DNA of 64,000 nt from contig OZ020252.1 of assembly GCA_963971285.1 (NCBI GenBank), positions 13,305,662 through 13,369,661 of the forward strand, in the 5' to 3' direction. Made by a program: the position numbers and the translations under genes. Within the stretch, counting starts at the first letter, position 1, and each line of letters opens with the position of its first letter. This document shows positions 573 to 47,697 of this stretch, piece by piece. The DNA comes from Astropecten irregularis. Taxonomy: Eukaryota > Echinodermata > Asteroidea > Paxillosida > Astropectinidae. Under the pieces are notes generated by a model. The model searched no databases and was not told the origin of the DNA. It worked only from the letters and a program-made list of their open reading frames with translations.

Positions 573-749
573 CGTCGCATATCGGGCAGCAGTTCTCGGG
601 TCGGATGATGGCGTGCGAACATCGGCTCTGGCACTGGATTGTCTCGCAGGTGATCTGGCCCTCCAAGCACAGACAGTCTCGGCAGACGTTGCGCACCGAC
701 GTCCAGTGCGATTCGTGGTCGTGCCTCTCGCCGAGGTCATCGACACATC
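573..749 (-). CDS. Exon 23: complete VWC domain 7 (last exon seen)
   Basis: 177 bases, phase 1 at both ends: [20 protein letters not shown], then [11 protein letters not shown] and ENCCPICD. The donor G|gtaaca shows the gene continues to the left. No further exon is recognisable in 1-572, so the next one lies outside the window. Confidence 0.88.

Positions 750-47697: not shown

Follow-up and report, generated by a model that had tools for sequence, protein, structure and literature searches.

Does the minus strand of this stretch of Astropecten irregularis DNA carry one gene for a single long extracellular protein, and if so, what would such a protein do with a tyrosinase-type domain placed between a NELL-like head and a long tail of VWC modules? 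The window, by which we mean the whole stretch of 64,000 nucleotides that was analysed, had received a first-pass annotation claiming 23 exons in unbroken phase between positions 47697 and 573. We rebuilt the gene and examined its modules one by one.

Exon chain and modules of the predicted gene

For the rebuilding, minus-strand open frames were listed, splice sites were scored, and candidates were chained by phase, starting with the two gene ends and the stalk exon already known from the annotation. A single open frame of 23 exons was obtained, with a start codon at 47697 and the end of exon 23 at 573 (4,882 nt, 1,627 aa, no stop; Table 1). Splice sites are GT/AG in 23 of 23 exons and phases match at every join, so that the claim of an unbroken chain was reproduced; the rebuilt coordinates agree with the two ends and the stalk exon used at the start. 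However, phase matching is not fully independent evidence, because at exons 8 and 13 the donor was selected for agreement with the phase of the exon that follows, and not for a best or good score. Donor scores are below zero for exons 6, 8, 13 and 21. Exon 23 stops at a phase-1 donor following CCPICD, the same kind of junction as at the other VWC ends, which indicates that the gene runs on past the 3' end of the model, outside the window. The locus thus appears, as a gene model read from the DNA, to be one gene for one long secreted multi-module protein, and the annotation's proposal of a long secreted multi-domain product holds at that level.

Table 1. Exons and modules of the predicted gene, in the order of transcription.
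Feature	Position	Strand	Basis
Exon 1: start codon and signal-peptide-like N terminus	47601..47697	-	top hydrophobic ATG-exon candidate in 44440-49500; donor 6.4
Exon 2: TSPN (LamG-type), NELL2-like	43910..44439	-	phmmer to NELL2
Exon 3: probable last TSPN strand	38269..38341	-	best phase-0/phase-1 candidate in 16.7-kb gap
Exon 4: Ser/Thr/Pro/Ala-rich stalk	26848..27237	-	open frame, splice signals, phase 1-1
Exon 5: coiled coil	22243..22364	-	heptads across exon 5/6 join
Exon 6: coil end and first half of VWC0 (collagen-II-like)	19731..19865	-	PDB 5nir_A 1.3e-5
Exon 7: rest of VWC0, EGF, first part of Kunitz	18721..18988	-	Pfam EGF 6e-6 (module alone)
Exon 8: Kunitz end and Cys-rich linker	17760..17911	-	Pfam Kunitz 5.5e-12 across exon 7/8; donor -0.4
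Exon 9: Cys-rich linker and half-VWC-like stretch ahead of tyrosinase domain	16858..17078	-	splice signals, phase 0/2
Exon 10: tyrosinase domain, CuA half	15984..16203	-	alignment from residue 1 of Streptomyces tyrosinase 1wx2
Exon 11: tyrosinase CuB half and start of [YF][DN]xxG repeat	13774..14390	-	Pfam Tyrosinase 1.1e-10 on exon open frame
Exon 12: [YF][DN]xxG repeat	12751..12905	-	period-5 autocorrelation
Exon 13: [YF][DN]xxG repeat, then region without known relative	11669..12143	-	weak donor, -1.4
Exon 14: Cys-rich module without Pfam name	10195..10391	-	splice and phase chain; no Pfam match
VWC1: exons 15 (9602-9526) and 16 (8652-8559)	8559..9602	-	Pfam VWC 2.3e-12
VWC2: exons 17 (7537-7458) and 18 (6042-5949)	5949..7537	-	Pfam VWC 9e-10
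VWC3 and VWC4: exons 19 (4963-4701) and 20 (3652-3556)	3556..4963	-	VWC4 4.8e-11; 10 Cys each
VWC5: exon 21	2451..2624	-	10 Cys; donor -0.7
VWC6: exon 22	1683..1856	-	Pfam VWC 5.4e-11
VWC7: exon 23	573..749	-	Pfam VWC 4.8e-7; phase-1 donor at 573

Several features of the chain lend it support. G+C content is above that of the exon's own flanks in all 23 exons, the narrowest case being exon 17 (0.47 versus 0.44); values for exons 4 and 9 are 0.58 versus 0.31 and 0.57 versus 0.27. The exons that end inside a VWC domain (6, 15, 17 and 19) stop, in four cases out of four, one residue past the CxC motif and in phase 0, whereas exon 9, with a half-VWC-like stretch that has no Pfam match, ends elsewhere and in phase 2. 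Across the join of exons 5 and 6 the heptads of the coil stay in register (a/d residues ILVMLLVML, running from exon 5 into exon 6), a result equalled by 10 of 2,000 shuffles. Joining exons 7 and 8 makes the Kunitz match complete (5.5e-12, against 0.0014 for the exon 8 part alone), and joining exons 10 and 11 improves the match to Streptomyces tyrosinase 1wx2 from 1.6e-14, for the exon 11 open frame, to 7.7e-25.

Searched with Pfam as a whole, the product matched Tyrosinase (2.5e-15) and VWC (6.4e-53, in seven stretches), in line with the at least seven VWC domains counted earlier. EGF and Kunitz were absent from this whole-product listing, although both match as separate modules, and NELL2 was absent from the matches at E <= 0.1 when residues 1-504 were searched. 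These losses in longer queries are probably due to the HMMER filters acting on a long, biased query.

The description of the head as NELL-like was supported. In a phmmer search the TSPN domain of exon 2 matched the NELL2 chains 10ft_B (4.4e-7) and 9pwq_B (4.6e-7), the only matches below E = 1, and a coil and then a VWC follow in order. Pfam gave no match for exon 2, and exon 3 lies outside the NELL2 alignment. The stalk of exon 4, also without a Pfam match, carries three N-glycosylation sequons close together, two of them overlapping, and is partly a 12-nt minisatellite. VWC0, given alone, reached 2.2e-5 with Pfam VWC, under its cut-off, and its nearest relative is the collagen II VWC. Its second half leads straight into the EGF domain. 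One EGF domain was found after VWC0, as against the array of several that NELL proteins carry.

Given alone, the Kunitz module aligns with positions 1-52 of the 53 in the profile. In the predicted product its P1 residue, which we take to be the one following the second Cys, is Glu and not basic. A basic P1 is a feature of trypsin-type Kunitz inhibitors, so this Glu does not suit trypsin-type inhibition. Pfam gave no match for exon 9. Its half-VWC-like Cys pattern enters the tyrosinase domain directly, in the way that VWC0 enters the EGF domain.

A degenerate tyrosinase domain and the adjoining repeat

The domain encoded by exons 10 and 11 matches 1wx2 over residues 6-233 of a 249-aa query, with 36% identity in the pairwise alignment. 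Its best matches in the PDB are Streptomyces tyrosinase and mollusc haemocyanin units. To read the copper site, 81 rows were aligned, namely the best 80 of 126 confirmed loci plus the PDB reference; these 80 loci were all titled Streptomyces, and the resulting ligand table therefore measures one genus. Every one of the 81 rows has His at all six copper-ligand positions. The predicted domain keeps one of the six at strict alignment: H63 is present, H38 is replaced by Y, H54 by N, H194 by F and H216 by Q (one of the two genome-search patterns let this last position be only H or Q), and H190 falls in a gap. The position of H38 reads as R in two other alignments and as Y in the 81-row alignment, where an HH pair lies two and three residues further on. 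Because this pair is so close, H38 is ambiguous, and up to two of the six ligands could remain. At CuB no His is kept, in the haemocyanin and Streptomyces alignments alike.

The domain, still recognisable from its sequence, keeps 55 of 145 near-invariant columns overall, 27 of the columns being gaps in the domain. Within two core stretches of our own choosing (reference residues 56-120 and 195-235, ligands H63 and H216 included) it keeps 35 of 66. We call this predicted domain a pseudo-enzyme, one in which nearly all copper-binding residues are missing. The annotation's "dead oxidase" is thereby backed, with five of six ligand His missing at strict alignment and the reservation on H38. Taken together with the P1 residue of the Kunitz domain, the oxidase-like and the inhibitor-like modules both look non-functional in their usual role. 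An AlphaFold model of exon 11 as a single sequence was unusable (mean pLDDT 38.0).

Horizontal transfer of the tyrosinase domain, considered on account of the Streptomyces match, was set aside for lack of evidence; alpha-type tyrosinase domains occur in animals too, according to PMC3658974, and the animal relatives sampled here were those in the PDB.

Directly after the tyrosinase domain comes what had been described as a Gly-Tyr-Asp repeat, which we can now define as a five-residue [YF][DN]xxG unit with randomised codons. The repeat stretch is 154 aa long, and 26 units of the looser pattern [YFLHW][DNST]xx[GDC] cover 84% of it, with Y or F in 23 of the 26 units, D or N in 23 and G in 22. In autocorrelation the period of 5 is strong for aromatic residues, for Gly and for Asp/Asn. 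Tandem Repeats Finder detected no DNA tandem repeat in exons 11-13. Among pairs of the same residue at unit positions 1, 2 and 5, codons are identical in 207 of 490 (0.42), versus 0.43 expected from the rest of the gene. The DNA copies have thus diverged to saturation without loss of the protein pattern, a sign of constraint on the repeat at the protein level and of long-standing selection on the protein.

Searches for relatives of the repeat confirmed none of 3 pattern matches in viral contigs and none of 35 in GTDB genome contigs; no Pfam family matched up to E = 1, and the best PDB match was at 0.67. For the region after the repeat and for the Cys-rich module of exon 14 there was no Pfam name, and for the former no convincing PDB match. 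A 33-residue stretch that would make the region after the repeat a relative of SR-B1 scored 0.015 and was taken as chance. Exon 13, modelled with AlphaFold as a single sequence, gave a mean pLDDT of 30.6 and an unusable model.

Possible roles of the product

The reading that we favour, at about even odds, is that of one gene for a secreted, probably oligomeric extracellular scaffold of the matrix or secreted-adhesive type, and not for an oxidase. The function, a matrix or ligand-binding scaffold, is one that we infer from the modules. The coil would oligomerise the chain, perhaps as a trimer by analogy with NELL and thrombospondins. The TSPN head and the VWC tail would bind matrix components, and perhaps BMP-type ligands. 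Between them, the stalk could serve as a glycosylated spacer and the pseudo-tyrosinase as a folded binding or spacer module, and the Tyr/Phe-rich repeat would form an extended segment, either structural or a substrate for cross-linking. In the latter case another enzyme, acting in trans, may oxidise or cross-link its tyrosines.

The main functional rival is a secreted modulator of BMP/TGF-beta akin to kielin/chordin-like proteins; the activity would then lie in the VWC array, with the central cassette as a passive spacer. We regard it as a serious but minority possibility. Seven VWCs stand in tandem in the tail and all seven have the full set of 10 Cys; moreover, at E <= 1e-5 the tail matched nothing in the PDB but two collagen II VWC sequences, and the collagen II VWC domain binds BMPs. 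However, no crossveinless-2 or chordin VWC chain was matched by the tail at E <= 1e-5, and the constraint on the repeat argues that the centre of the protein is not passive. VWC domains are also common in matrix and skeletal proteins, the available text of PMC5460417 reporting VWC proteins in the sea star skeleton.

Structurally, the main rival is a split into two neighbouring genes on the same strand, one for TSPN (plus stalk) from 47697 to about 26848, and the other, starting at about 22364, for coil, VWC, EGF, Kunitz, tyrosinase and VWC. The introns between exons 2/3, 3/4 and 4/5 are large (5.6, 11.0 and 4.5 kb), and exon 4, with no Pfam match, draws its support from splice signals, phase and G+C content, without homology; being 390 nt long and in phase 1-1, it could be omitted without a frameshift. 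Codon scores in exons 1-4 are weak as well. Codon usage separates these exons from background hardly at all (null windows as good: 577/3057 for exon 1, 105/873 for exon 2, 1204/4530 for exon 3 and 108/873 for exon 4) and is modest for exon 5 (158/2104), exon 12 (123/1278) and exon 13 (72/873), against a null set that still held the LINE, lectin and UTP20 stretches and whose windows were 60 codons for exons above 60 codons. For exons 1-4 we consider this scoring too weak to judge. What speaks for a single gene is that phases match across the joins of exons 2 to 5, and that exon 3 reads on for 8 residues to a stop, so that the first gene would encode little more than a TSPN domain. In addition, NELL and thrombospondin-1 usually have TSPN, coil and VWC in this order. 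A split is, on balance, unlikely.

Within the scaffold reading, a more specific idea can be put forward, which we hold to be quite improbable: the dead tyrosinase might be a docking or templating module for an active oxidase in trans, placed right before its own Tyr-rich substrate repeat. One chain would then unite an assembly head, an enzyme-recruiting domain, a cross-link substrate and a ligand-binding tail. With a repeat kept as protein beside a dead oxidase, one could ask directly whether tyrosine cross-linking in matrices or adhesives is guided by pseudo-oxidases.

Finally, a decaying or chimeric pseudogene without function, to which the lost copper site might point, is hardly credible in view of 4,882 nt without stop or frameshift, of the 10 Cys intact in 7/7 tail VWCs, and of a repeat kept as protein while its synonymous sites were randomised.

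Known relatives and surrounding sequence

The scaffold that we favour resembles NELL1/NELL2 in having TSPN, coil, VWC and EGF in the same order, and differs from them in its one EGF instead of an array and in the added Kunitz, tyrosinase-like domain, repeat and long VWC tail. With kielin/KCP it shares a long tandem VWC array in a secreted protein, and it differs by the central EGF-Kunitz-tyrosinase-repeat cassette. KCP ends in a C-terminal VWD; such an end is not seen here because the window ends before the gene does, at 573. To type-3 copper proteins of the secreted alpha type (Streptomyces tyrosinase, mollusc haemocyanin) the likeness extends over the whole domain, as the match to 1wx2 indicates, whereas here the domain has 1/6 ligand His at strict alignment and is set in a modular extracellular protein. 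If this reading is right, it would be a clear case in which a long extracellular protein has taken up a type-3 copper domain as a non-enzymatic component.

Combinations of repeats with VWC, EGF and further extracellular modules are also found in secreted adhesives and in shell and skeletal matrix proteins. In the flatworm, as described in PMC9229212, Tmed-ap1 contains C-type lectin, EGF, VWD, C8, TIL and VWC. The secreted Tmed-tyr1, 511 aa long, includes both a laminin and a tyrosinase domain, so that the pairing of a tyrosinase domain with an extracellular module already has a precedent. Tmed-tyr1, however, is a short separate chain, proposed there as an active cross-linker, whereas here a degenerate domain sits inside a long VWC scaffold. 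One survey of the family sorts it by signal peptide, Cys-rich region, copper sites and membrane anchor, and the terms "EGF" and "von Willebrand" occur 0 times in its main text (PMC3658974); in the available text of a second survey (PMC3334994), "EGF", "Kunitz" and "von Willebrand" occur 0 times. In the open-access literature, which was the scope of this comparison as distinct from the public protein databases, we recognised no protein with the whole module set. Predicted proteins of the same architecture may well sit in those databases.

On the far side of exon 1, other coding sequences were recognised. Upstream of it lies a reverse-transcriptase fragment (49078-50490, minus strand, RVT_1 7.9e-27), presumably a LINE. 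UTP20 exons occupy 61834-63723 on the minus strand, where the C-terminal domain PF23099 matched at 1.8e-9 on 61834-62325 and, below the cut-off, at 0.034 on 63295-63723. Between UTP20 and the gene for the VWC protein, on the opposite strand, is a C-type lectin exon (56670-57059, plus strand, Lectin_C 4e-18).

Five Rfam tRNA matches were found in the window (932-1005, 2061-2133, 7783-7855, 50532-50604 and 58246-58318), and their number and scatter suggest tRNA-derived SINEs. The introns of the gene contain three tandem arrays: a telomere-like CCCTAA array with an 84-nt higher-order period between exons 3 and 4 (30087-30441), a 143-bp tandem repeat of 2.5-2.8 copies between exons 13 and 14 (10659-11064), and a GAGCCT array of about 44 copies between exons 15 and 16 (8906-9172).
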